Source of the DNA: Agarophyton chilense
Lineage: Eukaryota; Rhodophyta; Florideophyceae; Gracilariales; Gracilariaceae
DNA length: 64,000 nucleotides
Direction: 5' to 3'
NCBI GenBank assembly: GCA_030374765.1
Contig: JARGXX010000002.1
Span: 868,001-932,000, forward strand
The notes beneath the pieces were generated by a model. That model ran no database searches. It had not been told where the DNA came from and saw only the letters and a list, made by a program, of their open reading frames with translations. How positions within the stretch are numbered: the first letter of the stretch is position 1; the number at the start of each line of letters is the position of its first letter. The position numbers and the translations under genes are program-made. Below are positions 9,109 through 62,360 of this stretch, in pieces.

Positions 9109-9774
9109 TGTAGTATTCTACTATGTCGGGGAATCCGATAGGCTGGTTTTTCGCGAATTCGCGGTTGGAACTCATAAGTGAGTGATACTATCAGAATTGT
9201 GATATGAAACGGCACACCGCGTAGGATGCCAGGAGGCAGGGTACATTGTTGGAACGCGTGGCATCACGAGTGGAGTGGCTTGCAACGGCGCATGTAGTGG
9301 CAATCCACGTGGCTGGTTTTACTACGCTTTGTAGCTAGACGTCCATTAGGGAACGTACCCATACAGTGGTTTGGGTAAGTGGCTGACGACTGGGTATTAT
9401 TTACGTATTATTTGGGCACTCACCCTGGCACACCGTATATAGTGTACCAGAGGTGAGCGCCGACTCCAAGTAAAGGAGACAACATGGGCATCTTGACTAT
9501 TCTGTTCCTCGCTTAGGATTCCTTAACCGGAGATTCGGACGAGCTATAATAGATATTCAGCCCCCAACCACTTCACGAGCGGTCTCGTACCTACATTCCA
9601 TCAACGATTTACAGTTAAACTGTTCACCCTCGCTGGCGAGTAGTGGCCTTACACCCCACTTCCAGCTCGCTGGTGTTGTAGCTCTACCACCCCTTTTCCT
9701 TCGCCGCAAGCGACCCATCGGCAGTCCGAACGCTGTCGCAGTTGTCTGCTCTCTCAGTTAGAACGGATACTACA
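9109..9774 (+). repeat. 3' LTR, family C (666 bp)
   Basis: Starts TGTAGTATTC and ends GGATACTACA, an inverted terminal pair. It has exactly the same length (666 bp) as both LTRs of element C and is their reverse complement. A purine tract AAAGAGTGGGG lies just before it, in the position expected for the polypurine tract. A 9-bp inverted repeat around a TATA-like core lies at 9425-9450. Confidence 0.93.
9425..9450. promoter_or_regulatory. TATA-centred inverted repeat in the LTR
   Basis: CTGGCACAC and GTGTACCAG flank the 8-base core CGTATATA. The same dyad occurs in the LTRs of element C (best at 49510-49535). The near-symmetry suggests a core promoter that could work in either direction; this is inference. 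Confidence 0.45.
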
Positions 9775-19698: not shown

Positions 19699-19701
19699 AA
19701 A

Positions 19702-28519: not shown

Positions 28520-28524
28520 CGGAT

Positions 28525-29410
28525 TGTAGGAAAACGCTTGGAGCGGAGACACCACGAAGATGATCGGTATCTTCCTCTCTTGAGAGACACGCCTCAGGCG
28601 GAGGAGACGCGTCTCAGCGAAGCACAGAAACAGAGCCACTCTGGAAAGGCACGACGGAGTCGGGTGTAAGACCGAGGCCAATCCGGCGGGATATACCTAG
28701 AGTGTTTACGTGAGCACGGCACAGTCCAGGGTGTGACCGATCCCAGGCGGAGCGGTATCACGGCGATCTTCGGAAAAGGAGTGAGGAAACACTCGTATGA
28801 GGGGGACGAGCGAGATGAGTGGTGCGGCCACTCACGAAAGCCAAAAAGGAGAACAAGAGGAAAACGGGGGCGAAACCCTATACAGGGGCGAGACTACGAC
28901 AAGTTTCGGCGATTAAATATGAACCCACGGTGGTGGTAGCACTCTAGTCGACAGAGGGGTGGATGAACTAACGTGCGACGGGCGCTCATGCAGTATGCGG
29001 TGAAGACGCGCCGAAGGCAAAAATTTCAGAGCCAAGACTCCCTCCTTGGTCTCCCAAGAGGGTGTTTACTGGGGAGCAGTGCTCAACCTTCTAAGCAGTG
29101 TGGCGCGCGGCCCCTGACAGCGGGCTCGCGCCTGAAAAGTAGACACTAAATAGCGATAGCGTAGCTAAGTAAATACTAAAAATTACTAAATAATACTAAC
29201 CATTAGGTAGAATCCGGGCCACGTGTGGCACGCCTCGCACTCGAGCGTTGGCATCCGTGCAGTACACGTGTTCCACCAGTGTACACTTCCGGTCCTAACC
29301 GTCCGTCAGCACGCAATAGCGGTATAGCTTGTCATAGCCCAAGCTATTCCTCAAGCGAGCGAAATCTCGAAGTCCTGGGAAGAAACCCCCTTGAAGGGCA
29401 TTGCACTTCA
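28525..29410 (-). repeat. Element B 3' LTR (886 bp)
   Basis: On the plus strand it runs from TGTAGGAAAACG to GGGCATTGCACTTCA. It matches the split copy at 38743-39262 plus 49858-50215. On the minus strand a purine tract GGAGGGGG precedes it (29413-29423), fitting the polypurine tract. Confidence 0.95.
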
Positions 29411-29445: not shown

Positions 29446-31304
29446 ATGGCGGGGAGGCAACGGTCCAACCGGTATAAAAGCGAGCCGTGTAACGCGTCCA
29501 GCGACCACTCGACTGTCGAAGGCAGAGCTACACAACCGAACGACAAACGCACCAACGCGGTAACCAATCCCCGAACTTCGAGCGTTCTTCTGCATCGTAC
29601 ACCAACTTCCAGCAAACACATCCCGATACCTCGGCGACCAGTATTCCCGATGAACGATGGTGACAATCCCCGCCGGGGTTACTTCTCCGGTTTCCATTCG
29701 GCTCCCCTTCCGCGGGAGAGTGCCTCGTCAACCGCGCCGAGGCGATCCCGGGGTCCCGTTGAAGCTTCAAGCCACATCACTTCTGCGGAGGACACCTGGC
29801 CCAGTTACGACGAACTCGTCGGGTTAAACCCGTGTCAACATGCGGCGATTCTCCGGAGAACTCCGTGCTTCCATCCGACAGCGGTCTTCGACGAAGAACT
29901 CGTGGCGTCGTATGCTGATGGCAATGCGCGTCTCCCGGGCGAGCTGCTGGCTTTGATCACCACCTCGTGGGATTGGCGACGCCGTGTGGCGGTTCCCGTT
30001 CACGCGATTCTGCGGCGAAGGCGCGAGTCGGCGGAGGAGGCGCATTGCGTATTTGTCCGCATCGGCTATTCACGGATCAACCGGGCGAACTTTCAATACC
30101 CCATCCCCGACGAATTCGGCTTCGACCTACGGATGTACCGGACGCAGGGTGAGATCGGCTATTGTGACCGTCTTGCAGCGTTGTAAACTTACGCATGGCG
30201 CGGTCAACCGCGAGCGCGTCAAGAAGCAATCTGCTGGGTCCGTCCGATCATTCGTGCCGAGTTCCGTCCTCTTCGTCGTTAGTCCCGATATCGGTGGTTA
30301 CAGAACTTCATCCGCGAGGAGCGTCGGGGCTTGGGTTCTTTGTCCCTTATCAGAACACGGAGATAAACCGGATTAGTCCCTTCTATGAGTTCGGGCGATA
30401 CGCTCCCTTGCCTGGGTGGTGGTCCTCCGTTGAGGTGTGCCGGGGATGTTACGTGGAGTTGCCTCCAGTCGTCTCCTATCTGGGCTCGTACTTCATCGAG
30501 GATCCGCACTCCGGCTTATGGTCCGTGGTCCTAACTGAATGGGCAGTCCGCGCCGCGGCGTACATCTTGTGGGAAGCCTACGACCAGTATCGACTGTGGT
30601 ATCTTCCTCCGCGTTTGCGTGGTTACATCCGGCAGCTGGACCTTCAACTCCCTCTTGGAGGTGTCAATAACGCTGATGAAGCGCAGGAGCTCATCGACAT
30701 CATTGGGCGTGTCAACTGGGCTGTCGTGCCTGCCCGGCAGAGCGGCCGTGGTCAAGAAGCCGGTAGGGCTGATCGGTCTCCGGGGCGTCGCACGCCGTTG
30801 GCCGGAGATTTCATCTTCTTTAACTCATAGGAGCAGAAATAGATCTCCGAGGCGGAGGCGTCGGCACTCCGGATGGCTCCGCGGGACTTACCATACGGGC
30901 ACCCCGTGGGGTTTGTCAACTCGGATGACTTCTACTACGCCTATGGCGGTGATGATCTCCCGGAGGAAACGGGCGAATACCGTGGCGACGAGGTCATGGA
31001 AGACGTGGGAGACCCCGATGGTGCCGATACTCCGGCGCAGCCGGCGCAGGGAGTGACTCACGCAGGTGCGGTCATCGATCCAGTGGCGGCGGCGTTGCCG
31101 GACGAACCGGAAGTTATCGAGGTTCCCATATGCCCAGAGGCGGTCGTGATCTTCCAGTTCCTTCGGGGTGTTGGACTGAACGCGCAAGCGGCAAGCGGCG
31201 ACATCGGTGCGATGAGAGACGCCCTCGTGGCACGCCTGACCGGTGGGAGTAACTCCGCTAGCGACTCGGTTGGCGCGCACGGCAATCCTGGTTCTTCCAA
31301 CTAA
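29446..31304 (+). CDS. Antisense accessory gene of element B (fossil part)
   Basis: It is transcribed opposite to gag-pol. It begins 35 bases outside the 3' LTR at the ATG of MAGRQRSNRYKSEP and ends 214 bases short of the end of pol, tail to tail. It is open in large blocks. It has a Ser/Arg/Pro-rich N-terminal third, then a block with AVFDEELVASYADG, then a conserved middle with CYVELPPVVSYLGSYFIEDP and AYILWEAYDQYRLWYL, then GDFIFF, an acidic linker, and a C-terminal helix-like FQFLRGVGLNAQAASGD. Each block has a counterpart in element C's antisense gene, about 52% identical over the middle 52 residues. No signal peptide, membrane span or known domain is recognised. Whether this copy is whole is unclear. 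Confidence 0.75.
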
Positions 31305-31517
31305 TCCCTTGTGACCTTGGTTAGTATATCCCGCTGTGCGGTAGTGTGTGCAGCAACTTCGAAAATAGTAAACTGCTTCCGTCTATGACGTATTTCCTCT
31401 CTTTCTTCTCTTCCAATTCTTCTGAGTGTCCCTCCTCCAGGTCTTCTGTGCATCTTCTCCTTCTTCCAAGGGTCTTTATCCAGATCTTCTGTTCCTTTAT
31501 CCCCATCGGGTGTCTTC

Positions 31518-33704
31518 TTATCCCACTCGGGCTCGGTCTATGGTAGCCGGCAAAGCCGTGACCGTACGACGATGATACTGTACCACCTTTGACCGAGGTA
31601 GGTGCTCTATCGGTTCGTCTGAATCCCATTCGACGCCGTACCCGTGCCACCGGACCAAGTATTGGATATACCCCTCTGGGTGGTAGGAGTGCTCCAGAAT
31701 GCGTCCGACCACGAACTCTTGTCGGTACACTTCCCGGCCATTTCGTATGACGGTGTCGCTATTTCCGGGTGGTACCCGTCCTGTGCCAGGAGGTAGCGAA
31801 GTGATCACGCGTTGGGCGGCTTCGCTCCGGTCGGACCGTGTAGCGCGCGAGGCAGTCCTCGGCTGAGTGGAATGTCGACCCGACTTCGGCGGTTCATCTT
31901 CCCCAAGTGCCTGGTTTGCTTCGGCGTTTCCCACTTCGGTTGGAGGGCCTTCCCCGGCGGGTAACCCGGGTGGTAGTTCCGCTAATCGGCATGGTGAAGC
32001 TCGCTTCGGCGGTGAGATTCGCTGGGGCGGTGGCGCATTGTCGCACCTCTCTATCCCACGGCGAGGTTCCGTGTAGTCACGTGAGGGTTCCAATAGCTGG
32101 CTGTCCGGCGTCGGCGCCGTGGATGTATCCGCCTCCCTGTGCGGGGTACCTGGCGGTGCGTCGTCCACTCGTACTGTATCAGGCTACGGTGCGTCGAGCG
32201 CATTTGCATTCCTTGTTGCACGTGTGGTGACACCTCGGCGAGTGTTGGTGGCTTTATCCGCAGCTGCGTCCTGAGGCTTGGATAGCAACTGCGTCGAGTC
32301 TTGCCGGACGTCGGTATCAGGCACCCCTGATGGGCGAAGAATGACACTCGACGGCGCGGCGGTTCCAGCGATGGTATCGACCGGATTACGACGGCTGTCG
32401 GGCGCCTCCCCCTCCCTAGACGATGCACTGGAGTTGGTGTCCGTCGGGTGGACTGGGGAGGAGCGACGGATGGGCGACGCGATTCCTTGCGGGTTGGGCG
32501 CCGCGGGTAGCGGAAGGTTAGACAAACCCCGAGATGGGTGTGGAAACGCGTAGGGACACGGGAAGACCTGGGGTAAATGGGTCGATGAATTCGTTTCAAC
32601 GGGAACAGTCACACCAGTTGGTTGGGATGTTAACGGCGGAGGAGCCGGTACCACGCGATCGCGGGAGATGCGTTCGTGATTACCAGCGAGGTCAACAACG
32701 ACAGTGTCGGGAGCCACCCAAATAACCCGAAAAGGGCCGTCGGCAACGGGTGACAGCTTGTGTCGTTTCTCCTTCTCTGGGTTCCAATACTCCTTGCGGA
32801 TGAATACATAACCGTCGGGGGCGAGTCGTGGCGGAGAGCGAGGGGCTTTGGTATCAATGTCACGCTTGTAAGCGGCCTGGGCTCGGCCCATTGAACGCCG
32901 TGCGGCGGGGACGAGCTTCATGAGCCAAGTTTTCCACGCTTCGCGGTAAGCAGTCGGTGACAGAAAGGTATCCAGCGTGGGCTGTGGTTCCAGCGCCACG
33001 AGCGGTTGGGTACGGGACAGTACCAGCTCCAAGGGCGTTAATCCAGGTGTCCTGTGCACCTGCGCATTGTACGCAAAGGTGAGCGCATAATTGAACAAGT
33101 CCCAATCTTTGGGGTGGTCTGCAACGTATGAACAGAGTGTCGCAAGTAATGTCCGGTTGAACCGTTCGGCCTGCCCATAAGTTTGGGGGTGGTAAGTGGT
33201 CGTGAACCGGTTCTTAATGTCCAGGATTTGACACACATCCTCGGAGAAACGAGAGGCGAACGGTCTCCCGTTATCGGAGAGGAGTTTGACTGGCGGACCG
33301 TAGACAAAGACCCAGTGTAGGACGAAGGCTTGAGCCACGCTCAAAGCGGAGATCTTCCGTAACGGTACGGTCCGTACCAGCTTGGAGAAGCGATCCGTAA
33401 TTACGAGTAAGAACTTGTAATTCCGCTTAGTAGTAAGGAAGGGACGGAGTATATCGATGGCCACAAACTCCAATGGAGCGCGAGCTGGGAACAGCTTCAA
33501 CTTCGTCCCATGACGGCGGAGCTTGACACGGTTCCGAGCGCAATCGGTACAAAACCGCACCGTTGCGTAGCAGTCCACTGACATGGCAGACCAGTAGAAG
33601 TTACGGCGTAGGGCGAGGTAAAATTTCCGTCCCCCGATGTGGCCACTCAGTTTGGAGTAGTGCGACAACCGCAAGACTCTCGACTGGAGGTTATGTGGTA
33701 CCAC
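31518..33704 (-). pseudogene. Element B integrase and chromodomain part (fossil)
   Basis: Zinc-binding HHCC domain (HYSKLSGHIGG, CTDCARN), DDE core (FVAIDIL, LLSDNGRPFASRF, HPQTYGQAERFNRTLL), then a linker of roughly 250 residues rich in Pro/Ser/Thr, then a chromodomain (QEFVVGRILEHSYHPEG, YLVRWHGYGVEWDSDEPIEH). The chromodomain places the element among the chromoviruses. Confidence 0.92.
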
Positions 33705-33740
33705 GATTTGTGGGTGCGATCCGACGGTCCGTACAAGTTA

Positions 33741-35978
33741 TCAGGCGTCATTCACCTGAAAGGGGAGAATACCTCCTCCATCGAGTTGAGCGCGGACCTT
33801 CGCGCAGAACGGGTCAGCGAATTGCTCCTGTATCATCTCCTTTGGAGTAATAGACACGAAGTTCCCTGGTAAGGGTTTCTTGGAATCTTCCGAGAGAAGA
33901 AAGTCGTCCAATTCGGAACCGGAATCTGAAGAGTCCGTGTCTCGTTCCTCGTCCTCGATGGTAGCGTCGTCGGCATTCACTGCGAAGCAGGGTATTTCAT
34001 CGTCTTTGACGGGTAGTGCTTCGCCAGTAGTGACCAGGCGGGAGAGAGCATCGGCTTGGGTGTTGTACGATCCTTTTCGGTACTGCACGTCAAAGTCAAA
34101 TTCCGCTAGACGGAGACGCCAACGCATCAAGCGGCCTGAAGGCTCCAAGATGGAGAGTAGCCATCGAAGCGATGCGTGGTCCGTGAAAACGGTGAAATGG
34201 TTACCCATGAGATAGGGGCGCAACGTTTGTAATGCCCACACTACTGCAAGGCATTCCTTCTCCGAGACGGAGTAATTTTTCTCGTGGACGTTTAGCGATC
34301 GGGACCAGTACCCTACGGGACGTCTTTCCCGATTGGGTGCAGTTTGCAACAGTGCACAACCTACTTGGTAGTCGCTGGCGTCCGTATCTACAGTGAAGGG
34401 CCTTCCAGGCTTGGGCAACGAGAGAATCGGGGCGGAGACGACGGAATCCTTATGAGAGTTGAAAGATTCCGTTTGAACGGGGGTTAAGGGGTCCAGTTTT
34501 GGTGGTTGGCCTTTCCGCAAAAGCGCGTTTAACGATGCAGCCTTGTCCGCAAAGTGCGGGATGAATCTTCGGTAGACGTTTGCGAGTCCCAGAAAGGAAC
34601 GAAGCTCGGTTTGCGTCCGCGGTTCTTTAGCCTCTTTGAGTGACTTAACACAAGTCTCCTCGATTGTAACAAGTCCTAGACGGATAACATGGCCGAGATA
34701 CTTCACTTTGTCCGTGAAGAAGTCACATTTCTTCAACTTAAGAGTGACACCCGCATCTCGAAGCGTGGTCATTATATCCCTCACATGAGTGAGATGTTTG
34801 TCCATATTATCTGAGAAGACGATTATGTCATCCAGGTAGACCAGGCAGATACGCCATTTGAAGCGGTCCAATAGGATGTCGATGGATCGCTGGAAAGTAG
34901 CGGGGGCGTTGGTAAGACCAAAAGGCATCCGTTTGAAACGGTAGAGACCAGAGTGACACGCGAAAGCGGTTTTATCCTGGTCTTGCTTCCTTACCGGAAC
35001 TTGCCAGTATCCCCAATTGGCTTCCAGGGTTTTAAAGACGGTGGCGGTGCCCAGCGAGTCAATGTACTCGTCCATTCTTGGGATTGGATACACGTCCTTG
35101 ACGGTATCGGCATTCAACCGACGGTAGTCGACGCAAAACCTCCAGTAACCATCCTGCTTTGGAGCCAGTACTACTGGAGAAGCCCACGGCGACTGAGCCG
35201 GTTCACTGACTCCTGCTAGAAGCATTTTATCCACTTGTGCCCTTTCCTCCGCGCGTGCGGCGGGTCCGGCACGGTATGGGTGCTGAGAGATGGGTCGGGT
35301 GTCCGGTAGCAAATCAATCCGGTGTTCCGTAGTGGCATTATCACCAAGGGAGCCGTACCACATAGTGGTAAAGTCCCTTAAAAGCTCTTGCAATCGATGG
35401 CGGTATGACTCCGGGACGTGGCTGAGATCCAGGTCCTCGAGTTCTTGGACTGGATCGGGGCGGTCACCTCTCGTTGAAACGGGCTGCGTCCCTGATGTTA
35501 CAGGTTGAACCCCGGGTACCAGCGATGAAACGGGTTCCGGGCTGTCCCCCTCCTTAGAGTGAACGAGTCCAAGAACGTCAGCTGCGGTCAGCTTTGTCGG
35601 CACCATAGCAATGGGGTGCGGCATGACGCACCCTATCACTTGGTTCTTCACCAGATACTGGGGTACAGTCCCTACATTGGCGATCAGCACGTGAAACGGT
35701 TGGTTTAGTTTTTCATGGACGATTCCATTCGCAATTGCGAGGCTGTGCCTTTCATACAATGACGACAATGGTTGCAAGACCCGGAGTCCGTGTTGACGGG
35801 AGGTTACTTTTACCATCATTTGGGACTCAGACAGGACGCACAACGACGCTGCGACGCGGAGCTTATCAAATTCACGGGTATCCGGTCCAGCTTCCTGTGC
35901 TGCCGGTAGCGGGACATGCTTCTTCGTGGGCCGCCTAAGCGGACGACGAACGATCGGAGTGGACGATCCATCCTTCAT
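33741..35978 (-). CDS. Element B reverse transcriptase-RNase H part (fossil)
   Basis: A 745-codon open frame. RT motifs in order are SPWASPVVLAPKQDGYWRFC, DYRRLNADTV, FGLTNAPATFQRSID and the YLDD box in CLVYLDDIIVFSDN. RNase H follows with TVDTDASDYQVGCALL, SEKECLAVVWALQTLRPYL and TDHASLRWLLS. This is the standard Ty3/gypsy order. Confidence 0.95.
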   Translation of the reverse strand: MKDGSSTPIVRRPLRRPTKKHVPLPAAQEAGPDTREFDKLRVAASLCVLSESQMMVKVTSRQHGLRVLQPLSSLYERHSLAIANGIVHEKLNQPFHVLIANVGTVPQYLVKNQVIGCVMPHPIAMVPTKLTAADVLGLVHSKEGDSPEPVSSLVPGVQPVTSGTQPVSTRGDRPDPVQELEDLDLSHVPESYRHRLQELLRDFTTMWYGSLGDNATTEHRIDLLPDTRPISQHPYRAGPAARAEERAQVDKMLLAGVSEPAQSPWASPVVLAPKQDGYWRFCVDYRRLNADTVKDVYPIPRMDEYIDSLGTATVFKTLEANWGYWQVPVRKQDQDKTAFACHSGLYRFKRMPFGLTNAPATFQRSIDILLDRFKWRICLVYLDDIIVFSDNMDKHLTHVRDIMTTLRDAGVTLKLKKCDFFTDKVKYLGHVIRLGLVTIEETCVKSLKEAKEPRTQTELRSFLGLANVYRRFIPHFADKAASLNALLRKGQPPKLDPLTPVQTESFNSHKDSVVSAPILSLPKPGRPFTVDTDASDYQVGCALLQTAPNRERRPVGYWSRSLNVHEKNYSVSEKECLAVVWALQTLRPYLMGNHFTVFTDHASLRWLLSILEPSGRLMRWRLRLAEFDFDVQYRKGSYNTQADALSRLVTTGEALPVKDDEIPCFAVNADDATIEDEERDTDSSDSGSELDDFLLSEDSKKPLPGNFVSITPKEMIQEQFADPFCAKVRAQLDGGGILPFQVNDA

Positions 35979-36505
35979 CTCGACACGCTTCGACGAAGCG
36001 GTCGCAAAAGTCGCAACCCAAGATGACTGGGGCGGCTAATTTCCGACATACGACGAAGTCGAGTTTCACCACGCGAGCGCCAACGCGGACTACCAGTTCT
36101 ATGAACCCCACCGTATCCAACGGTTTGTTGTTCGCGTCAGCGACCTCCGGGACGTGGTCGCGGCGGATCCTAGACTGCAAAGCAGGCGGTAACACTTCCT
36201 CCACGACAAAGTTCGGACCGGGCACCGGTGTCTAAGACGGTAAGGTTTCGTACCATAAACTGGGGTGAAAGGCCAAGGTCAGCATAGACCTTGTAGTTTC
36301 TCTTGGCCATCACCAGAACTCTATCCGGGAACGGATTATGGAAGACAAGTTTCCACGGACGACGCATAACACTAAAGTGTTCCGAGTTCACGTCATTGAC
36401 GGCCTCTTTCCTTGAAAGGATTTTTACCGGGGAGCGAGGCTTGGACGCCTCGGGCGCCGTCGACTTCGACTCTGAGGGCGCCCCTCCTTGAGAGGAGACT
36501 CCCAA
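35935..36505 (-). pseudogene. Element B protease part (fossil)
   Basis: Aspartic protease signature LDTGA near 36235 and the hydrophobic partner motif APVILGCDFCD near 36010, in the usual place between gag and RT. Confidence 0.85.
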
Positions 36506-36507
36506 AT

Positions 36508-38568
36508 TTAGTTTTTCTGGGCCTGCTCCGCCGGAGGCGGCTGCTCAGGGCGTTGAGCAGGCAACGCCTGGGCATCAGGTCCAGAAGGTACCGCAGAAGC
36601 GGTGGGGTGACCAACCACGTCGGTGACACGGAAATCTGGTGCAGGTACGACCCGAGCTCGGGGAAGCGACACGTGACTTGGAACATTCGTTCGAGCACGG
36701 ATATAAGATGCAATCGGGACAGCTGCTTTGTCCTCCGGGGATTGAGCCTCGTAATTGGCTACGACTTGTGCCCATTCCCGGAGAGACAACACACATTGTG
36801 GAGAATTATGGCCTGGTTCGTAGCAGAGATGACAAATCAGACCAGAGGCCGGTGTTGGGTGACGAGGCTCGGCGAACTTCACCGCTGGGCGGGTATCTCT
36901 CCAACCAGGACGCGAAAATTGGAAATTACCACTCTCATGTGGGAGGCGTGGCGCACGGACGCGACCAGCATCCGCATAGAGTAGCGTACCATCCTCAATC
37001 ACGTATTGTGACTCGTCCAGGGTGGAGGGTAACTCCGTTGTCGGGATGGAATGAACGTCGCTATGGGCTAGCTGCACGTTATCATAATCCCTTCGAGAGG
37101 CCTGTTCGTCGATCATCGAAGCTGATGCGGTACCCGGTTGTAACATCAACGCTTTTGAGAACCTAACCCTGGAGCCAGGAGTGCGTGCGCGCAGGGCTTC
37201 ACCTTCTGCACGAGCGAACTGCACTAGTTTCAAATACGTGGCTTTAGGTCTATCTTCTCGACGTCGAGCAACAAGAGTCCGGATCGCCGGGTCCAAACCA
37301 TCAACAAACACGGTACAACGCTCTTCAGCGGGGTAAACATTGCCACAGCGGTGGAAGGCCTTGTTAAGGCGCGACGAATAATCGGTTTCCGACTCACCTG
37401 GACGTTGGCGAGTGTCCCGCAGGGCAAGTATAGCTTGCTGAATGGCGGAGTTAGTAGCACACGACCTCAGAAGGTACTGAACTGCTTCGGGCCAGCATGT
37501 TACCCCTCCTCCGGACGCGAGTGATAAAACTCTGACAGAGTGATACTTGTCTTCTGCAAGCCCACGTAAGAAGTACGGTAAGGCAATGTAGGCCTGTCCC
37601 TCGTTCTTTCCAAGGATGTCAGCTTCCGCGACAAAGCGTGCCAAGAAATCCAACACCAATATTGGGTCTTCTCTAGAAAACAACTGATTGCGAAGTGAGA
37701 GCGGCATTCGCTTAATGCAGTCCTTCACTCTTCCCGTACCACGGGGTGTACGATCCAAAGAGGAGTCCTCCAAGCGGTAGTACCGGTATTATAAGAGCTT
37801 CTTAAAGAGCGAATTGGAAGGTTTCAGCTCCTTCAAACCTGTGTGCTTCCTTCCCTTCGTGCGGGCGCGGATCACTCCATGGGTGTCTGTTGACCGCTTA
37901 GAGCGTGAGGAACGCTCACGGCGAGCTACTTCCACCGATGAATCGGAAGAGTCGGACTCCGAGGATGTGGAATCCGACGGTTCGGGATCCGTGTTTCTTC
38001 GCTTCCTTCGAGCTGGGCGGTTCTCTTCCTTTCTTCCCTTGTGGTATACTGCAACCGGCTCGGCCGGATCATCCCCCGAAATCAGGGTTGGTTCCAACGT
38101 CTCAAGACGGCTTCAAACGCACGAACACTTGTCCGCAACGTCCTTGACAAAGGCGGAGGGTCCACTAAGGGACTCTAGAATCGAGTTCACATCCGCACGG
38201 AGGACACGGAGGTGCTCTGAAAAATCCTGCGTAGCAGTGTCATCCACCTTCTTGCGAAGGGAATCGAACTCCTCTGCAAGGATGACTTGAGCTTCCCGCA
38301 TAGAGCGGAGTTGCTCTTCCACAGCTTCAAAGCTGGGATGGAGAGTGACATCCCTAGCAGGGGAGAGCATCTGGGCGGCGGCAGACGCCGGTCCTGCTCC
38401 ACTTGCTGGGGGTGTCGAATCAGAGACAGGAGGTCTCGAGGTCCTTCCACCTGGCACGCCAGTCGATCCACCGGTATGAGACCGTGAACGGACCGGGAAA
38501 CGAGATGGTTGCGATGGTTCCGGTTCACCGGTTTGACTCCGCGTCCTCGGACGGTCTTTGGACGACAT
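36508..38568 (-). pseudogene. Element B gag part (fossil)
   Basis: It contains the retrotransposon gag domain (FLARFVAEADILGKNEGQAY, then KYHSVRVLSLASGGGVTCW, then VFVDGLDPAIRTLVARRRED) and a CX2CX4HX4C zinc knuckle, CHLCYEPGHNSPQC, near 36830. The N-terminal part has a predicted coiled coil and an acidic Ser/Asp tract followed by an Arg/Ser-rich stretch (37900-38000), a feature also seen in elements C and E. Confidence 0.88.
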
Positions 38569-38721
38569 GAGATCAGAATCCGTTACACTTGAGTATCCAA
38601 ACCCGATCGGCTAGTGGGGCCAAGAAACTTCCTCAAAGAGGGCAACTGAGATCAACTGAGATCAACCTCAATTGTGAGTTCTCTTTCCGATTAATCGTGA
38701 CTGAGTGTGCCCGACTCAAAC

Positions 38722-38739
38722 TTCTAAGTCGGGAGACTA
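38722..38739 (-). other. Element B primer-binding site
   Basis: On the minus strand it reads TAGTCTCCCGACTTAGAA, 17 of 18 bases like the sites of elements D and E, 3 bases inside the 5' LTR. Confidence 0.75.
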
Positions 38740-38742
38740 GTT

Positions 38743-39262
38743 TGTAGGACAACGCTTGAAGCGGAGACACCACGAAGATGTTCGGGATCTTCTTCTCTTG
38801 AGAGACACGCCTCAGGCGGAGGAGACGCGTCCCAGCGGAGCTCAGAAACAGAGCCACTCTGGAAAGGCACGACGGAGTCGGGTGTAAGACCGAGGCCAAT
38901 CCGGTGGGATATACCTAGAGTGTTTAGGTGAGCACGGCACAGTCCGGGGTGTGACTGATCCTAGGCGGAGCGGTATCACGGCGATCTTCGGAAAAGAAGT
39001 GAGGAAACACTCGTATGAGGGCGACGAGCGGGGTGAGTGAGGCAGCCACTCACGAGAGCCAAAAAGGAGAACAAGAGGAAAACGGGGGCGAAACCCTATA
39101 CAGGGGCGAGACTACGACAAGTTTCGGAGATTAAGTATGAACCCACGGTGGTGGTAGCACTCTAGTCGACAGAGGGGTGGATGAACTAACGTGCAACGGG
39201 CGTTCATGCAGTATGCGGTGAAGACGCGCCGAAGGCGAAAAGTTCAGAGCCAAGACCCCCTC
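38743..39262 (-). repeat. Element B 5' LTR, first portion (cut by element C)
   Basis: Begins TGTAGGACAACG. It matches 28525 onward and stops at CCCTC (39258-39262), the target duplicated by element C. The rest of this LTR is at 49858-50215. Confidence 0.95.
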
Positions 39263-39928
39263 TGTAGTATCCGCTCTAACGGAGAGAGCAGACATCCGCG
39301 ACAGCGTTCGGACTGCCGATGGGTCGCTTTCGGCGAAGGAAAAGGGGTGGTAGAGCTACAACACCAGCGAGCTGGAAGTGGGGTGTAAGGCCACTACTCG
39401 CCAGCGAGGGTGAGCAGTGCAACTGTAAAACGTTGATTGAACTTAGGTACGAGACGGCTCGTGAAGTGGTTGGGGGCTGACTATCTACTATAGCTCGTCC
39501 GGATCTCCGGTTAAGGAATCCTAAGCGAGGAACAGAATAGTAATGATGCCCATATTTTCTCCTTTACTTGGAGTCGGCCCTCACCTCTTGTACACTATAT
39601 ACTGTGACCAGGGTGAGTGCCCAAAGAAATATATAAATAATACCCAGTGGTCAGCCACTTACCCAAACCACTGTATGGGTACGGTCCCTAATGGACGTCT
39701 ACCTACAAAGCGTAGTAAAACCAGCCACGTGGATTGCCAATACATGCGCCGTTGCAAGCCACTCCACTCGTGATGCCACGCGTTCCAACAATGTACCCTG
39801 CCTCCTGGCATCCTACGCGGGGTGCCGTTTCATATCACAAGTTTGATGACATCATTTACTTATGAGTTCCAACCGCGACTTCGCGAAAAACCAACCTATC
39901 GGATTCCCCGACATAGTAGAATACTACA
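39263..39928 (-). repeat. Element C 3' LTR (666 bp)
   Basis: Starts TGTAGTATCC and ends GAATACTACA on the plus strand, a 10-bp imperfect inverted pair. On the minus strand it is preceded by the purine tract GAGGGGGG (39931-39938). It carries a decayed copy of the TATA-centred dyad near 39587-39611. Confidence 0.96.
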
Positions 39929-39952
39929 TACCCCCCTCGTTAAGCGCGAACC

Positions 39953-41779
39953 ATGGGGGACGCAAGAAGCGTTTATACGCAGTCGGACCGGTGTACCGGG
40001 TACTCATCTTCATTACGAAATCCTCGCCGCCCGACCAACTCTTACAGTTCTCAACAGCATTCTGTTCCTCACCGCTCTTCAGCTCGTTCTCTCGCTATGA
40101 ATCCGAACGCCGGGTACAACCCGTTTCAACCCTCCTCCGAGTATGTTCCTTCTGGTGCTCCGTCTAACACTGCTGGTTATGCGTCCCAGCCTACTGCTCA
40201 ACTGGGTCCATACCGTTCGTTCCGCACACCGTACACCGGATTCCGGTCGGTACCGTTACCTCAGCCAACCGTGGCTCCGATGCCGAACGCGGCTCACTTG
40301 GCCTCTGTGGGTGCGATTCGAGCTTCTTCTCGTCGGGCTCAGCGGAGCTACTCGCACCCTGCGGATTTCTATGCACGAGATTCTCTCGACAACGTTGAAC
40401 TTTTCGCGCAAGCACCCTGGTTTGATCCAGTTGCTATCCGCGATGAAGCTTTGATACAACAGTATGTACACGGTGGGTACTTCCCCGAAGGTATTCCGGA
40501 ACACGCGATTTATAGCGACGACTGGGCGAGCCATATTGCTTTGCCAGACAACGCGATTGCGCGATATTCAACGGAAACCTTGTCCGAAGCCCGTACGCGG
40601 TTCACCAAGCTGATTTACCAGCGTCTTCATCGATTCATCAGTACGGTTCTCCTCCCGAAGGACTGGGAACTAGATATCTGGATAGCCCCTACTGACGGTG
40701 AAGGTTACTCGTATATCGAGACACTCGTTGAATTCATTGTTAGCGGTTAGCGCGGTGGGCGAGGTGTGCGTGATGCAGCTCTCTGCTTTCAGAAACCTCT
40801 TCTCCGTGCGGAGTTTTGCTTCCTTCGAAAGCGTGACATTCCCTATTGGGATTTTCCCCGTTGGGAACGTCGTACTCGATCACGTTTGGGCTATTTGGTG
40901 CCGTATGAAATGATCGAGGTTGACCGCATCCGACGGAACGCGCGCTTTGGGCGCTACATCGGTATTCCGGAGCATTGGGCGGCGATCGAGAGTCCTCGTC
41001 GTTGCCCTGTGGAGCTCCCACCGGCAATCTCCTACATCGGGTCCTCGCTAGTTAACGACCCGTTCTCGGGATATTGGACGGTGGTTTATACCGATTTTAT
41101 CGCCAAGATGGCCGTCTTCCTCCTGTGGGATGCTTATGATACCTTTAGAGTTTGGTACATGTCGCCCACAGCGCGAAAGTATGCGAGAGAACTCAACCTT
41201 TCCCTTGTCCTGGGATCCAATGCAAACCATGCCGACTTCCTCCATCTTGTGGATTTGATCGACAGTGTCGATTGGTCCGGAGTGCCAGCTGATCAATCTG
41301 CTCGCCGACCTCGTGCAAGACACCACGACCATTCTCCTGGACGAACAGCAAGTGCTGGAGATTTCGTTTGGTACGACCCCTGGACGCGCCAGCTGATCAC
41401 ATCCGAGCAGGCTCGCTTTCTTCGGGAGAACCCGCGTGACATGCCACCGAACCAGCTTACTGGATACGTGTACGAGGGTACTCTATCCAAGAACGGAGAG
41501 GAACCGTATGAGGAAGCGCCGGGAGCTGAGGCTGAACTCGGTTACGAGGACGAGCCAGAGCTGGCAGGCGTAGCGACTTCCGTCGAACCATCCGCAGCGG
41601 CGGGAGTTGCTCAAGAGTACTCTCATGTGTTTATCCAACAACCCAGTGCAGGGCCAGTCGAAGATCCAGGCTTGGATCCGATGAGGCAGTTCTTCTTAGA
41701 CGCGGGCTTTCCCGTGGACCAAATTGAGGGTGATCGCGCACAGCTTCTTTCGAACCTGCGTGCTCGCACGTTTCTTTAA
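39953..41779 (+). CDS. Antisense accessory gene of element C (fossil part)
   Basis: It lies on the strand opposite gag-pol. The first likely ATG (MGDARSVYTQSDRCTGY) is 25 bases outside the 3' LTR; an upstream ATG in another frame lies within the LTR at 39862. The gene ends 306 bases before the end of pol, tail to tail. Order of blocks: Ser/Pro/Gln-rich N-terminus; APWFDPVAIRDEALIQQYV; a block to about 40740; then GYLVPYEMIEVDRI, CPVELPPAISYIGSSLVNDP, FLLWDAYDTFRVWYM, SAGDFVWYDPWTRQL; an acidic linker; and C-terminal MRQFFLDAGFPVDQIEGDRA. It is homologous to the antisense gene of element B. I see no zinc knuckle, protease, envelope-type membrane span or other known motif. Its function is unknown. 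Confidence 0.78.
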
Positions 41780-42084
41780 TGATCCTAGAAAAGACTCCTA
41801 GTCAACACCCTTGCGGTGGTATCTTGATACCAATAAACTCCGCAGACTTTGTGTCTTCACGTTCCCCTCTTATCTTCTAGTCTTCATCTCTTCTCGCTTC
41901 TCGAGTTTGTCATAGGTGATAATCAGTAAATGTCCTTTGCTTGCGTGTCTTCACGTTTCCTCTTCATGATTTCTTGTTTTCTTCTCGCCTTTCGAGTTTT
42001 TACTACCTTTGTAGCCCATACTTAGAAATGTGATGTGCCCATGAGCGCGACTATCGAGGAGTCGATCTCTCTGGGTAGTGGTAA

Positions 42085-44040
42085 TCACATGTGTCGATGA
42101 TTTCGCACGAGCTGCGAACGGAGGATATGGGCTAAAGGTTCCCAAGTATCCGCTTCCGGAGGAAAACCGTACCAACGGACTCGATACAGTAGTTCTCTAG
42201 TATCTTCATGCTCTCCATGTTCACATATGCGATCCATAACATATTCCTGGGCGTTTCCCAATGCTTTTGCTGTTGTCGCGAGACTCCTGTTAACAGGTTT
42301 GAAATGCCTTAGGGCTGACCCAAGCGTCTCTGTGTTAGCAGTCTCAGCGTTGCTAAGCGTTTGATCGTCGACTAACTGTCGTTCTTCCCGCAGGGGCAGT
42401 GTACTCATTCCTTGAGAACCTTTCTCAGATAAAGAGCTATCCTGTTTTCTAGGTTCTATAGAAGCGTACTTCTTGCTACTTCTCAATTCCATTCGTGGAT
42501 GAACTTCCTTCGGTTTATCCGATTCTGACCGCTGTTGGGTGGACGATGGTGCTTGCACCACGACAGGAGGCGGTACCTCTTCTTCTTCCTGCCCACGAGG
42601 GATGGGAGCCGATATCAGCGGAACAGCGAGTGGCGCTTCACCTGACGGTTCAGATTGAAGCGGCAACGGCGCGTTTTCGCGTGCACTCGGTCCAAAGCCC
42701 TTCGGGCCAAATTCCAAAACATCTTTCCTGCTTTCAGGTTCCATTTCTGTATTTACGGGTGTGCGAGTGCCACGAGGCATATCCCGATATTTCGGAAGCT
42801 GTTCGTGATTGACGTACGCAACCGCCGGCGGTGGGAGATCAGGAGCTTTCTCCTCCGCTCGAGCTATTGGTGGCGGTTCACTCTCCCCAGAGTCACTTGG
42901 GCTTTTGCCTTGACGTTCCGTCGCACTTCCCTCCTTAGTTCTACCAGATACCTGGACTTCCACTTGCGGGTCAGGCGCAACTTCAACGCGATCGCGCGAT
43001 ACACGTTCAACGTTTTCACCTGTCTTGATGACCACTGTGTCTTCATCAAGTTCCACCACTTTGAAGGGTCCAGCCGCTATCGGCAACAACTTATGAAGAG
43101 AGTCTTCTTGTTTGTCAGGTCTTTCGACTCGTACGAAGACGTGACCTCCTACTCGGATTGCCGGATTTCCTCTTCGTCTTCTGGAGTCATAGTTTCGCTT
43201 ATAGCGAGCTTGCGTCTTTGATAACTCCTTAGCGGCTTCTTCCTCTATGGCCTTAAGGTCATTCCTCCATTTCAGATGGTACTTAGCCGGGGTCAGCGCG
43301 TCCAATTCTGTCTCGCCGTAAAGCGCAACCGGTAAAGCCGGAGGGTTACGTGAGAGCACGAGGTCGAACGGTGCCGTCTTTGTAGAGGTATGCACTTGCG
43401 TATTGTACGCGTAGCACAGACTATCTGTAAACATGTCCCATTCTTTCGGGTGGTCCGCGATGTAGTGTCGTAATGCTGCTATCAGCGTGCGGTTTAAACG
43501 CACCACCTGACCGTTGCACCGCGGATGATAGGTCGTGGTAAAAACGTTTCGAATGCCCATAATGCGGCAAACATTCTGAAAGAACTTGGCAACGAATTGC
43601 TTCCCATTATATGATAACAGAACTTCTGGTGGTCCGTATATAAATACCCAGTGTTTGACAAACGCCTGTGCGATTACGGTTGCGGTTATCCGCTTCAGCG
43701 GCACAGTCCGCACTAGCTTCGAGAAGCGGTCGGTGATTACCAATAGGTAGCGATAACATCGCCTTGAGCGAATCAATTTTCTTAGGATGTCGATACTGAC
43801 GTATTGTAAAGGCGCTTTCGCCTGGAATAACGTCATCGGTTTCCTCTTCCTGTAAAGATTCACGCTATTCTTCGCAAATGTTGTACACAACCTCACTGTA
43901 GCATGGCATTCCATTGCCAAAGTAGGCCAGTAAGAATATCTTCTTAGAGTCATGAACAACTTCGTTCCTCCTGGATGACCAGACAGCCTGCTGTAGTGTG
44001 TCAGATAGAGTACTCGACTCTTCAAGACGAGTGGAATCAC
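42085..44040 (-). CDS. Element C integrase and chromodomain part (fossil)
   Basis: A 651-codon open frame. HHCC domain (HYSRLSGHPGGTKLF, then C-x5-C), integrase core (QYVSIDILRKLI, LVITDRFSKLVRTVPLKRIT, VFTTTYHPR), then a linker of about 260 residues very rich in Pro/Glu/Ser, and a C-terminal chromodomain (QEYVMDRICEHGEHED, YRVRWYGFPPEADTWEPLAH). The long linker is unusual; typical chromoviruses place the chromodomain soon after the core. Confidence 0.92.
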   Translation of the reverse strand: MIPLVLKSRVLYLTHYSRLSGHPGGTKLFMTLRRYSYWPTLAMECHATVRLCTTFAKNSVNLYRKRKPMTLFQAKAPLQYVSIDILRKLIRSRRCYRYLLVITDRFSKLVRTVPLKRITATVIAQAFVKHWVFIYGPPEVLLSYNGKQFVAKFFQNVCRIMGIRNVFTTTYHPRCNGQVVRLNRTLIAALRHYIADHPKEWDMFTDSLCYAYNTQVHTSTKTAPFDLVLSRNPPALPVALYGETELDALTPAKYHLKWRNDLKAIEEEAAKELSKTQARYKRNYDSRRRRGNPAIRVGGHVFVRVERPDKQEDSLHKLLPIAAGPFKVVELDEDTVVIKTGENVERVSRDRVEVAPDPQVEVQVSGRTKEGSATERQGKSPSDSGESEPPPIARAEEKAPDLPPPAVAYVNHEQLPKYRDMPRGTRTPVNTEMEPESRKDVLEFGPKGFGPSARENAPLPLQSEPSGEAPLAVPLISAPIPRGQEEEEVPPPVVVQAPSSTQQRSESDKPKEVHPRMELRSSKKYASIEPRKQDSSLSEKGSQGMSTLPLREERQLVDDQTLSNAETANTETLGSALRHFKPVNRSLATTAKALGNAQEYVMDRICEHGEHEDTRELLYRVRWYGFPPEADTWEPLAHILRSQLVRNHRHM

Positions 44041-44160: not shown

Positions 44161-46308
44161 CTAATTGAGGAGCTCAGTGCACGAGATTCGCTCGAGTTGA
44201 ACTGAAGGGTCAGTTTCTGCTAATACAAGGAACGGGTCTGCATCCGAATAATCATCAAGGGTCTCTTGTTCCTCTTCTTCAAAAGATGTTGAATGGGTTT
44301 CCATGTAAAAGCAAGTTATGTCTTCATCGATTTTGCCTTGGGTTTCGCCTAGTTTTTTGAGTCGCGATAGCCCGTCAGCTAAGACATTGGCCAATCCCTT
44401 CTTATACTTCACTTCGAAATCGAATTCAGAAAGGCGTAAGCGCCATCGTGTGAGACTACCAGACTGGTCTGTAATGGACAGTAACCATTGTAGAGACGAG
44501 TGATCCGTGTTGACGGTAAGACGTTCTCCTTGGAGATACGGTCGCAATGTGGTTAGAGTCCAAACGACTGCAAGGCATTCCTCTTCTGAAACTGAATACT
44601 TCTTCTGAGCTGCGTTCAGCGATCTTGGCCAGTAACCAATGGGTTTTCGTTCACCATCAGGGTGTGTTTGAAAAAGGGCACACCCTACTTGGTACTCGCT
44701 AGAGTTAGTATGCACTGAGTATGGCAGGTTGGGTATGGGCAGCGCCAAGACTGGGGCTGTAATAATCTTTGTCTTCAGCGTTTCGAACGCTTCCACTTCA
44801 GCTTGTCCGAATTGTTCCAGCTGTACTGGTTGTCCTTTATGCAGCTTTGCGTTGAGCGGTGCCGCTATATGCGAGTATCGCGGCACGAATCGTCGGTAGA
44901 CGTTGCATAAGCCGAGGCAAGAACGCAACTGTTTCTGTGTCGACGGAGGTTGTACTTCGCGGAGAGCCGCTGTTTGTGCCTCTTGAATGGCAAGGTGTCT
45001 CGGCTTGATCACATGTCCTAAGTATTGGACGGTGCCAGCGAACCATTTTCATTTCTTGAACTTCAAGGTAATACGTACGCTCTGTAGTGCTTTGAGGATC
45101 TCCTAGACATGCCGTAAATGGCTTTCCACATCCTGGGAAAAGATGATCATATCGTCCAAATAGACAAAACAAGTCTTCCACTTGTATCTTGAGAGCAAGA
45201 TGTCCAGAGTACGCTGGAAAGTAGCCGGTGCATTCGTTAATACAAAGGGGATCCTTTTGAAACGGTAGAGACCGGCGTGACACGCAAATGCGGTTTTATC
45301 TTGGTCTTCTTCCACTACAGGCACCTGCCAATATCCAGAGTTGGCGTCCAACATGGTGAACACGCTCGCTTCTCCTAAGCTGTCAATGCATTCGTCCATT
45401 CGAGGCAACGGATATGTATCCCGAACTGTAACTGCGTCCAGTTTTCGATAATTGATGCAGAATCGTAAAGAACCATCAGGTTTCGGAACCAGCACCACTG
45501 GTGAGGCCCAAGCAGATTGAGCTGCTTCGATTACTCCTTCTTCCAGCATTTTGCTGATATTCCCCTCCTCAATTTGGCGAGTTCGCGGTCCCGCTCTGTA
45601 GGGTGCTTGGGAGATGGGTCGTGACCCTGGGACCAAATCAATGTGATGTTCCGTAGCGCAGATCTCTCCTATTTTTCCAGTCCACATAGATGTATACTTC
45701 TTCAGCATAGAACTGATCTTCGTTCTGTAGTGTTCCGACACATGTGCTAAGTCTAGCTCATCGACCAGGCTCTCTCGATCCTTTGCCGTTTGCAATTGAT
45801 CTCCAGACGGAGTTTGCAGTTCTTCGTCTGTGTCACCGACATGGGTTAATCCCAATACTTCTGCAGTAGAAAGATGAGTAGGGACCACCACTGTGGGATG
45901 AGGCAAAGCTGTTGCAACAACCTGATTCTTCAGTATCTGATACTCGTTATCGGTGAAGTTACTCACTAGTATCGAAAAGGGGCTACCAGGATCAACCTGA
46001 ACAATGCCGTTAGCGACTAGCAATCTACGGGATTCGAACATCAGAGTATTCGGTTGAATTACCACGAGTCCGTGTCGTTCTGTTCTTACTTGAACCCAAG
46101 TTTGGGTTTGCGCCTTCAGCATGGCACTCTTCGCTACTCGAATCCTCGGCGAGACACGTCCTCGGGATTTCCCGTATTTCATAGATGGTGGAAGTGGAGG
46201 TGATTCGGGGCAACGACGCATTGGCTTGCGAACAATTGGTACCATTGATCCATTATCTAGTTCCACTAGTTTTCTTCGCGGGCGAATGGCTTCGGCAACT
46301 TGTCGCAA
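44161..46308 (-). pseudogene. Element C reverse transcriptase-RNase H part (fossil)
   Basis: RT motifs SAWASPVVLVPKPDGSLRFC, YRKLDAVTVRDTYPLPRMDE, NAPATFQRTLDILL and CFVYLDDMIIFSQD (YLDD box). RNase H motifs NSSEYQVGCALFQTHPDG, SEEECLAVVWTLTTLRPYL and TDHSSLQWLLS. Order and direction agree with element B. Confidence 0.92.
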
Positions 46309-49168: not shown

Positions 49169-49186
49169 GAAGTCGTGAGACAACTT
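49169..49186 (-). other. Element C primer-binding site, diverged
   Basis: Minus-strand sequence next to the 5' LTR contains TTGTCTCACGACTTCGAA, which resembles the TGGTCTCCCGACTTAGAA site of the other elements at most positions. It is either decayed or matches a variant tRNA. Confidence 0.5.
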
Positions 49187-49852
49187 GTAGTATCCGCTCT
49201 CACGGAGAGAGCAGACACCTGCAACAGCGTTCGGACTGCCGATGGGTCGCTTGCAGCGAAGGTAAAGGGGTGATAGAGCTACAACACCAGCGAGCTGGAA
49301 GTGGGGTGTAAGGCCACTACTCGCCAGCGAGGGTGAACAGTGCAACTGTAAAACGTTGATGGAACGTAGGTACGAGACGGCTCGTGAAGTGGTTGGGGGC
49401 TGACTATCTACTATAGCTCGTCCGGATCTCCGGTTAAGTAATCCTAAGCGAGGAACAGAATAGTCATGATGCCCATATTGCCTCCTTTACTTGGAGTCGG
49501 GGCTCACCTCTGGTACACTATATACTGTGTACCAGGGTGAGTGCCCGAATAAATATACAAATAATACCCAGTGGTCAGCCACTTAGCCAAATCACTGTAT
49601 GGGTATGGTCCCTAATGGACGTCTAGCTACAAAGGGTAGTACAACCAGCCACGTGGATCGCCAATACATGCGCCGTTGCAAGCCACTCCACTCGTGATGC
49701 CACGTGTTCCAACAATATACCCTGCCTCCTGGCATACTACGCGGGGTGCCGTTTCATATCACAAGTTTGATGACATACCTCACTTATGAGTTCCAACGGC
49801 GACTTCGCGAAAAACCAACCTATCGGATTCCCTGACATAGTAGAATACTATA
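49187..49852 (-). repeat. Element C 5' LTR (666 bp)
   Basis: Partner of 39263-39928, with identical length and the same ends apart from one base. It is immediately followed by the target duplication CCCTC. Confidence 0.96.
49510..49535. promoter_or_regulatory. TATA-centred 9-bp dyad in element C 5' LTR
   Basis: CTGGTACAC, core TATATACT, GTGTACCAG: perfect 9-bp arms around a TATA-like core. It is conserved in the LTR at 9425-9450 and partly at 39587-39611. It is a candidate core promoter or binding site that could act in both directions. Confidence 0.5.
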
Positions 49853-49857
49853 CCCTC

Positions 49858-50215
49858 CTTCGGATCTCCCCAGAGGGTGTTTACCGGGGAGCAGTGCTCA
49901 ACCTCCTAAGTAGTGTGGCGCACGGCCCCTGACAGCGGGCGGGCGCCCGAAAAATAGACACTAAATAGCGATAGAGTAGCTAAATAAATACTAAATAATA
50001 CTAACCATTAGGTAGAATCCGGGCCACGTGTGGCACGCCTCGCACTCGAGCGTCGGCATCCGTGCAGTCCACGTGTTCCACCAGTGTGCACCTCCGGTTC
50101 TAACCGGCCGTCGGCACGCCATAGCGGTATAGCTTGTCATTGACCAAGCTAGTCCTCAAGCGAGCGAAATATCTAAGTCCTGGGAAGAAACCCCCTTGAA
50201 GAGCATTGCACTTCA
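49858..50215 (-). repeat. Element B 5' LTR, second portion
   Basis: It resumes element B's LTR directly after the duplicated CCCTC and ends at GCATTGCACTTCA, followed by the CGGAT target duplication. Confidence 0.95.
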
Positions 50216-60400: not shown

Positions 60401-62360
60401 CAATCGATTCGTCCGAAGAATCGGGAAGTGGAGCTGGGAGATGGCTCTACAGTACCAATCGCGCACAGACCTCTGCGGCGATCCGCTTCATTTGCACCAT
60501 TACCACAGTCATTGGAATACGAAGCGTCACTGGGCAAAACATCTCCGAAGATTCGGGTGTGTAAACTAACGATGGTACCACCAAAAAGTCAAACATGGGT
60601 ATCAGTCGTTACCGTGAAGTACGGACTTATCGTTATTCAGCCGAACGCGGCACTGTATCACAATAATGAATTGCTATTCGCTAACGGCATTGCACAGGTG
60701 AGTCCGAAGATCCCTTTCAGGATATTGGTGAGCAATGTTGGCTCGGAAGAGCGTCGCTTACACAAGCATCAACTCTTGGCCATGGCGCTGCCACACCGTT
60801 CAGTTGTGATGCCGGCACACATAATGACGCCAGACGTCTTAGGAGTAACGCCCACAGGCGAGCAGAAGTCGAGAGCGACAGAAGTGGTCGGGGCCATGAA
60901 GAACATTAAGGAAGAGAATGTCTCTGAAGAAGGGATGGAAGAAGCCCTCAAGGGCGTGAAGATGGCACATGTTCCTGAGGAGTATAAAGGAAGATTGCGC
61001 AGATTGCTGCTGAAGTTTTCAAATATGTAAAGTGGACACATTGACCAGATCGCGGCTGCAGAATATCCTATTGACGTTGTACCGGGTACACCACCCATCG
61101 CTTAATTTCCGTATCGGGCAGGCCCGCGAACCCGTCAGATCGAGCAAGAACAATTAGACTCCATGTTAGAGAAGGGAATCATCGAGCCAGCTTAATCAGC
61201 TTGGGCATCCGCAGTGGTCCTTTTTATCAAAGGAGACAGTTCTTTACGTTTTTGCGTTGACTACAGAAAACTGAATGCAGTAACTCTGAGGGATACGTAC
61301 GCATTACCGCGTATGGACAAATGGACTGATATTCTTGGAGAAGCCAATGCTTTTACTGTGCTTGACGCAAATTATGGATACTGGCAGATACCAGTCGACG
61401 AAGAGGACCAAGATAAGACTACATTTGCGTGTCACGCAGGCCTGTATCGCTTTAAGCGAATGCTATTTGGCTTGACCAACGCCCCTGCGACTTTTCAGCG
61501 TGCTATCGATATAATATTATCACAGCATAAGTGGAAAACATGTCTTGTTTACTTGGATGGCATCATCATTTTCAGTAAGAATATGGAAGACAATTTCAAG
61601 GACGTTGAGGGAATCCTCCAGGAGTTACAGCAAGCTGGAATTACCTTGAAGATCAAGAAGTGTGAATGGTTCACGGACTATGTGAAATACCTGGAGCACA
61701 GGATAAAGCCAGGGAAACTGGAAATGTAAGAAGTGCAGACCGCTGCGATTCGTGAGTTCAAACCTCCGCTAACGCAGACGCAATTGAAATCTTTTCTCCG
61801 ACTTTGAAACGTTTACAGACTATTTGTGCCACGTTATTCGCATATCGCTGCACCCCTTAATGCTTTATTGAAGAAAGAACAACCCGTTCAATTGAAGGAA
61901 TTCAGAGAAGCCGAAACATGGAAAAGCTAAAACACGTGTTGACCACAGCTCCTGTGTTATCTCTTCCGAAAAAAGATCTTCCTCACTCCGTCGATACGGG
62001 CGCTAGCGATTATCAGATAGGGTGTGCCCTTTTTCTAACACACGAAGACGGCATATCACATCCTATTGGATACTGGTCGAGAACACTGCACCAGGCAGAC
62101 AAGAACTACTCTGTGTCAGAAAAGGAATGCATTGCGATGGTTTGAGCTCTCAGAACTCTTAGATCTTACCTACAGGGTGCTCGCTTTACGGTCAATACCG
62201 ATCAATCATGCCTCAGATGGATCATGTCGATTACTGACCCGTCGGGACGCTTAATGGGATGGGGTTTGCGCCTTTCAGAATTTGATTTCACAATCAACTA
62301 CAAGAGGGGAACTTCAAACGTACACGCTGAGGCGTTATCGCAACTCGAGACCTTGGGAAA
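60400..62360 (+). pseudogene. Element E reverse transcriptase-RNase H part (fossil)
   Basis: RT motifs include DSSLRFCVDYRKLNAVTLRD, FGLTNAPATFQRAIDIIL and the YLDG-containing CLVYLDGIIIFSKN; RNase H motifs include DTGASDYQIGCALFLTHEDG and SVSEKECIAMV. Order as in B and C. Confidence 0.9.

Follow-up and report, generated by a model that had tools for sequence, protein, structure and literature searches.

A conserved antisense reading frame, probably an accessory gene, in Ty3-type LTR retrotransposons of a red alga

Two LTR retrotransposons in the genome of the red alga Agarophyton chilense (Gracilariales; 79.8 Mb in 135 contigs) carry, on the strand opposite to gag-pol, a long open reading frame between the end of pol and the 3' LTR. 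The locus raises the question whether this antisense open reading frame (aORF) is a gene that serves the element, and what its protein could do. Both elements, B and C, lie in the window, which is the whole stretch of 64,000 nucleotides analysed here (868001-932000), and the search was extended from there to the complete genome and to protein databases. An earlier, sequence-only reading of the window had proposed that the frame is conserved between two diverged families and was under selection at the protein level.

Element C was delimited by its LTR pair and Pfam domains and runs on the minus strand from 49859 down to 39263. Its 5' LTR (49186..49859) is 93.9% identical to its 3' LTR (39263..39937). 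Reverse transcriptase and RNase H are encoded by two ORFs (44164..46308; Pfam RVT_1, RT_RNaseH), followed by an integrase with a C-terminal chromodomain (42088..44040; Pfam rve, Integrase_H2C2 and Chromo, the last with E 1.3e-07), all on the minus strand. The aORF occupies 39953..41779 on the plus strand and counts 608 codons with an in-frame stop at codon 266; the 3' LTR ends 15 bases short of its ATG. A second possible start is found at codon 49, which is where the NCBI-predicted proteins P0001 and P0003 begin. Element B, also on the minus strand (39262 down to 28524), has the same domain set, with reverse transcriptase and RNase H at 33741..35975 (RVT_1, RT_RNaseH), integrase at 32187..33704 (rve, Integrase_H2C2) and a chromodomain ORF at 31521..32168 (Chromo, E 4.2e-06). 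The outer edge of the LTR at its 5' end (38742..39262) abuts element C, and its 3' LTR was placed at 28524..29044 with an approximate inner edge. The aORF of B starts at 29446, about 400 bases from the 3' LTR, and extends on the plus strand to about 31304, with stops and a frameshift near 30315-30330. B and C are both Ty3-type elements with chromodomains and an aORF of about 610-620 codons in the position that had been claimed. Judged by the chromodomain they may be chromoviruses, as they were labelled earlier; Ty3 elements with chromodomains have also been described outside the chromoviruses (PMC12477816, as far as the available text of that report goes).

Two further copies are connected with the window. 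In copy A, a second member of the C family, the aORF lies on the minus strand next to a 3' LTR recognised by self-comparison of the window (9111..9774, plus strand), and is interrupted by an insertion nested at 3420-7822. The third copy reported in the sequence-only reading thus exists, with its extent corrected from 7813-9084 to 9084-7822, and consists of the first 421 codons with 2 stops. Family F is represented by a reverse transcriptase, RNase H and integrase region at 60440..63300 (plus strand) and by an aORF antisense to pol. This aORF, disrupted by stops, falls just past the last base of the window, at what would be 65173-66737 on the minus strand; the 3' LTR of F could not be located.

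Although the aORF copies of B and C inside the window are broken, intact ones were found elsewhere in the genome, with 608 codons for C and 622-650 codons for B. In one C and one B copy, each of the other five frames contains 8-32 stops, and no full-length frame is present on the sense strand opposite the aORF (12, 32 and 12 stops in the C copy; 8, 22 and 18 in the B copy). The B and C proteins, one natural copy each, share 31.5% identity over 562 aligned residues with similarity along the whole length, and could be recovered from each other's DNA by tblastn (E = 7e-80 with the B protein as query against the region of C, E = 6e-62 in the converse search). The block-wise alignment of the two proteins reported earlier was thereby extended to the entire frame, with the best block counting 26 identical residues out of 52 instead of the 27 given before. 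As had been noted, the LTRs of the two elements are unlike each other; in the self-comparison of the window no match over 80 bases was found between them.

Homologous aORFs are present in at least five A. chilense element families (B, C, C2, E and F). Searches of the whole genome returned at least 119 matches for C, at least 150 for B, at least 99 for the NCBI protein P0006 (C copies included) and at least 77 for the Gracilariopsis chorda protein P0014, all being lower bounds from the best candidates scored, so that the gene does recur in many elements, as the proposal had anticipated. The two P0014 matches examined, out of the at least 77, both belong to family E. Twenty C loci (L009-L028) were picked for a stop-free matched part and are therefore not a random sample; in ten of these the frame that opens at the LTR-adjacent ATG is 604 or 608 codons long, and in one further locus 652 codons. 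In all 28 C loci inspected (L001-L028, at 26 distinct places) a gap of 15 bases separates the LTR from the aligned aORF start. Family E has a 618-codon aORF opposite a pol with reverse transcriptase, RNase H and integrase. When the coordinates of 77 aORF places and 150 integrase places of family E, among the matches listed, were compared, 43 of the 44 pairs within 8 kb had the aORF antisense and downstream and one had it on the same strand, with about 2.3 pairs expected by chance; unpaired places are uninformative here. No chromodomain was detected by Pfam at E <= 0.001 in the family E pieces or the family F piece. In family C2 the aORF is adjoined, as judged by eye, by an integrase-like end that reads in the opposite direction and gave no Pfam match at E <= 0.001. 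At one C2 locus (L054) the nearest large pol, about 32-46% identical to that of B, has the same orientation as the aORF, and we read it as another element lying in between. The aORF thus occupies a fixed place in the element, and its homologues span at least five families and two genera.

Protein searches covering 5.8 billion proteins were performed with three queries, for each of which about 7,990 candidates sharing most words were scored. They yielded 14 relatives, namely six from A. chilense, three from G. chorda, four from Logan and one from the window. For the C frame, six NCBI proteins, all from A. chilense, and one Logan protein were returned; P0002 and the frame at locus L007 have identical sequences, and P0006 matches the genome at 100% over residues 1-406. 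A midpoint-rooted maximum-likelihood tree of 16 rows showed three clades, in each of which both A. chilense and G. chorda are represented: P0012 and P0013 group with B (support 100/99), P0014, on a long branch, groups with E (88/91), and P0007, P0009, P0010 and P0011 group with C, C2 and F (100/100), where P0009, P0010 and P0011 occupy under half of the alignment columns. Since both genera occur in each clade, the aORF was most likely already present in three element lineages before Agarophyton and Gracilariopsis separated, judging on the G. chorda side from protein sequences; horizontal transfer between the genera could also be the source of the shared clades. Reverse transcriptase and aORF agree on the two closest pairs, as expected if the aORF travels with the element. 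Over 369 common columns, reverse transcriptase identity is 68.0% for B-E, 59.3% for C-F, 56.9% for C-E, 55.8% for B-C, 52.8% for E-F and 49.9% for B-F, the margin of C-F over C-E being small; over 402 common columns of the aORF it is 53.7% for C-F, 43.3% for B-E, 37.8% for C-E, 36.8% for B-F, 35.3% for E-F and 34.8% for B-C.

Selection on the protein was assessed by the Nei-Gojobori method in the antisense frame. The dN/dS ratio is 0.12-0.13 between C and C2 (397 codons; 92-96, 72-77 and 216-217 differences at codon positions 1, 2 and 3), 0.15 between C and F (424 codons, with a dead copy standing for F) and 0.27-0.32 between B and E (574-602 codons, two alignments). An excess of third-position differences accompanies these ratios, which are rough because dS is about 1.9-2.8. 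For C-B, C-E, F-B and F-E, dS is at or near saturation, which leaves the excess at third positions as the usable measure; between B and C about 286, 279 and 401 differences fall on positions 1, 2 and 3. In the same comparisons between families, frames that do not share third positions with the aORF gave about 1.0-2.1. The reverse frame that does share them gave 0.27-0.44, but with stops at 24-44 codons. The similarity therefore does not mirror constraint on the sense strand, and the protein-level selection proposed earlier is borne out by ratios far from 1, although not for the B-C pair itself, where dS is saturated.

Inside families a different pattern was observed. Relative to a neutral N/S estimated from variation in 19 C LTRs, and with two duplicate C loci dropped, variants private to one copy reached 0.98 in 26 C copies and 0.97 in 20 B copies, the behaviour to be expected if the insertions are dead. 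Variants common to several copies are only weakly constrained (0.74 for C, 0.58 for B), and other frames gave similar or lower figures for them (0.53, 0.66 and 0.79 for C; 0.66 for B). The within-family test is thus not frame-specific, and the case for selection rests on the comparisons between families. Pairwise dN/dS within families is 0.77 and 0.95 for C, 0.53 for B and 0.52 for E. Taken together, the aORF protein is under purifying selection between families, and this constraint acted on the lineages that transposed, while dead copies drift.

The encoded protein has about 550-640 residues. Its N-terminus is rich in Ser and Pro, probably disordered, and bears the motif F-x-S/T-x-P-L-P in several families. 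The conserved core includes the blocks ERR-x-RSR-L/F-G-Y/F-L-VPY, LRAEFR, GC-x-VELPP-x-x-x-Y-x-GS and G-D-F-x-x-x-DPW, from which single proteins deviate; it is predicted with low confidence to be mainly helical. A linker, acidic for the most part, follows, and a helical hairpin is predicted at the C-terminus. Both structure models were poor (mean pLDDT 42.9 and 39.0), their better parts being the hairpin, a block with pLDDT of about 66-83 in both, and a helical segment that precedes the core. The sequence-only reading recognised no known domain in the protein, and database searches agreed: Pfam contained no family above its cut-off for any of the 15 aORF proteins, and the PDB offered no sequence relative. 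No domain, PDB sequence or reliable fold match points to a nuclear or DNA-binding function. A weak match to Ish1, a domain of the helix-extended-helix type (HeH/SAP/LEM-like), was obtained for one of nine C-termini, on a piece selected from P0007 (E 0.0033; score 18.2 bits, curated cut-off 26.6); the other eight gave unrelated weak matches or none. Retroviral antisense proteins of the HBZ type have a bZIP domain. Neither Pfam bZIP nor PF04195, the domain of the plant antisense protein TRP28, matched any of the 15 members at E <= 10, a threshold at which the HMMER filters drop most matches above about 0.1.

It is very likely that the aORF protein does a job for the element. We propose that an old group of Ty3-type LTR retrotransposons in red algae carries the aORF as an accessory gene. 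A putative promoter in or beside the 3' LTR would drive its transcription towards the interior of the element, and the messenger would therefore complement the genomic RNA in its 3' part. The protein may then act in trans as a nuclear accessory factor, in element transcription, RNA fate, integration or host silencing. An accessory or regulatory protein of the nucleus, expressed from the 3' LTR side, would be the most likely role by analogy, because of the position of the aORF, the precedent of maize Grande gene23 and the DNA binding proposed for TRP28. To this reading as a whole, a conserved accessory aORF putatively transcribed from the 3' LTR side and encoding a nuclear trans-acting factor, we give about even credence. 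A bolder version is tentative and rather doubtful: the aORF would be older than the split of Agarophyton and Gracilariopsis, adopt a new fold, be obligatory in the red-algal Ty3 group and encode an LTR-driven trans-acting regulator or an antagonist of host silencing. This would be an HBZ-like strategy that had evolved separately outside the animals.

Other explanations were weighed against the nuclear factor. That the protein counters silencing of the element by the host, through small RNA or chromatin, is unlikely but agrees with its accessory position, with the large copy numbers and with its rate of change, since the proportion of non-synonymous differences between B and E is 0.46 in the aORF against 0.24 in the more conserved pol, as expected of a host-facing protein. 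Disordered protein regions, however, commonly evolve fast as well, and no similarity to known proteins supports such a function. Somewhat less probable is a role in the structure or transport of the particle, for instance as a second capsid-like, an envelope-like or a cell-to-cell protein. A mainly helical prediction, a length of about 600 residues and the lack of a detected DNA-binding domain would fit it. Against it, antisense expression would uncouple the protein from gag-pol stoichiometry, and the core has a hydrophilic average (GRAVY between -0.21 and -0.55 across seven proteins). It is very improbable that a captured host gene or nested element is carried passively: the antisense orientation does suggest an ancient insertion, but purifying selection acts between families, the frame is apparently older than the genus split, and every relative found among the candidates scored in the three protein searches is from Gracilariales, the window or Logan. 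Least credible of all is that selection acts on the nucleic acid itself, through RNA structure, packaging or an antisense RNA, with the open frame as a by-product. An antisense RNA here would pair with the genomic RNA, plant antisense ORFs have been discussed as having roles at the RNA level (PMC7264820, in the text available), and shared within-family variants are not specific to the antisense frame; but the third-position excess and low dN/dS in that frame between families already disfavour it, and amino-acid similarity persists where no DNA similarity was detected.

The nuclear accessory factor can be set beside several known systems. A Steamer-like LTR retrotransposon of Mytilus chilensis, MchSLE-1, is described as having an antisense mRNA (PMC10974842); it is an animal element, and the likeness drawn here, on the text available, is one of description. 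HBZ and APH-2 of HTLV are antisense genes controlled from the 3' LTR side and offer, by analogy only, the model of a possible nuclear regulator (PMC11963269, PMC10186651, available parts). The red-algal proteins differ from HBZ in giving no Pfam bZIP match, and their LTR promoter is putative, with 15 bases between LTR and frame in C. Outside plants, fungal Boty is reported to have an antisense ORF between pol and 3' LTR (PMC7264820), in another host kingdom; the likeness drawn here is one of layout.

The closest parallels are the antisense ORFs of the plant Tat lineage of Ty3/gypsy elements, called aORF-3R or eORF-3'R and known from Grande (gene23), RIRE2 and Retand (TRP28) (PMC7264820, PMC11963269), which had been invoked in general terms by the earlier reading. 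According to the accessible parts of these sources, they resemble the present frame in position, orientation, presence in most copies of plant elements and lack of a known function; gene23 of maize Grande is nuclear with its own promoter (PMC7264820). Plant extra ORFs at large have been called highly heterogeneous, in a survey that asked whether they have any function (PMC6317226, available text). Retand is nearest in that one homologous antisense gene, TRP28, is kept across the lineage, in 97% of clusters from eudicots and monocots; DNA binding is proposed for it, and the available text names no known role for such recurring genes (PMC11963269). The plant proteins are unlike those described here, whose 15 members show neither PF04195 nor any Pfam family above cut-off; the hosts here are red algae; and Retand is described as a non-chromovirus, whereas B and C carry a chromodomain. 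Antisense ORFs in red-algal elements were not reported among the matches listed in the open-licence literature. A homologous aORF recurring in deeply diverged families and two genera adds a protein family without recognised relatives, and selection between families, combined with the neutral control from dead copies, strengthens the case that antisense genes of retrotransposons function. With a recurrent aORF, dN/dS far below 1 and that control, the function of such a gene becomes directly testable in a seaweed lineage. The layout is already known from plant aORF-3R and fungal Boty, and a lineage-wide homologous antisense gene from Retand TRP28; as far as our searches go, the aORF protein family and its red-algal host are new, with selection at the protein level measured here.

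B-type sequence lies on both sides of element C, a Ty3-type LTR retrotransposon, over positions 38742-50215. The left flank terminates in a B-type LTR (38742-39262), while the right flank (49865-50215) is about 90% like the part of the B internal region that adjoins the B 3' LTR. The motif CCCTC is present at either side of the element. Together, the B-type flanks and the CCCTC on both sides suggest tandem B-type elements with a common LTR, divided by element C.

The antisense gene of copy A, the second copy of the C family, is broken by a 4.4-kb insertion (3420-7822), both ends of which are formed by 288-bp direct repeats with 94% identity. It contains a DDE_Tnp_1_7 transposase gene on the minus strand (4222-5115). 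Another Ty3-type element, at 15506-20310, has LTRs with 88% identity and an integrase, and a full RT match was not found in it. Its pol is separated from the 3' LTR by only about 550 bp, and therefore the antisense gene cannot fit. The 685-aa open reading frame with WD40 repeats at 21973-24027, also on the minus strand, is probably a host gene.

At L055, the genome locus holding the family F antisense gene, a further antisense-gene fragment (4398-4933 of that locus) adjoins this gene and matches C at about 50-67%. Beside the fragment lies a stretch matching positions 56532-57308 of the window at 87% identity. Family E (loci L053 and L051) is abundant, with at least 150 integrase matches in the genome. 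Because those listed match at 94-100% identity and several are situated inside open frames of approximately 1540 codons, this family has probably been active recently.
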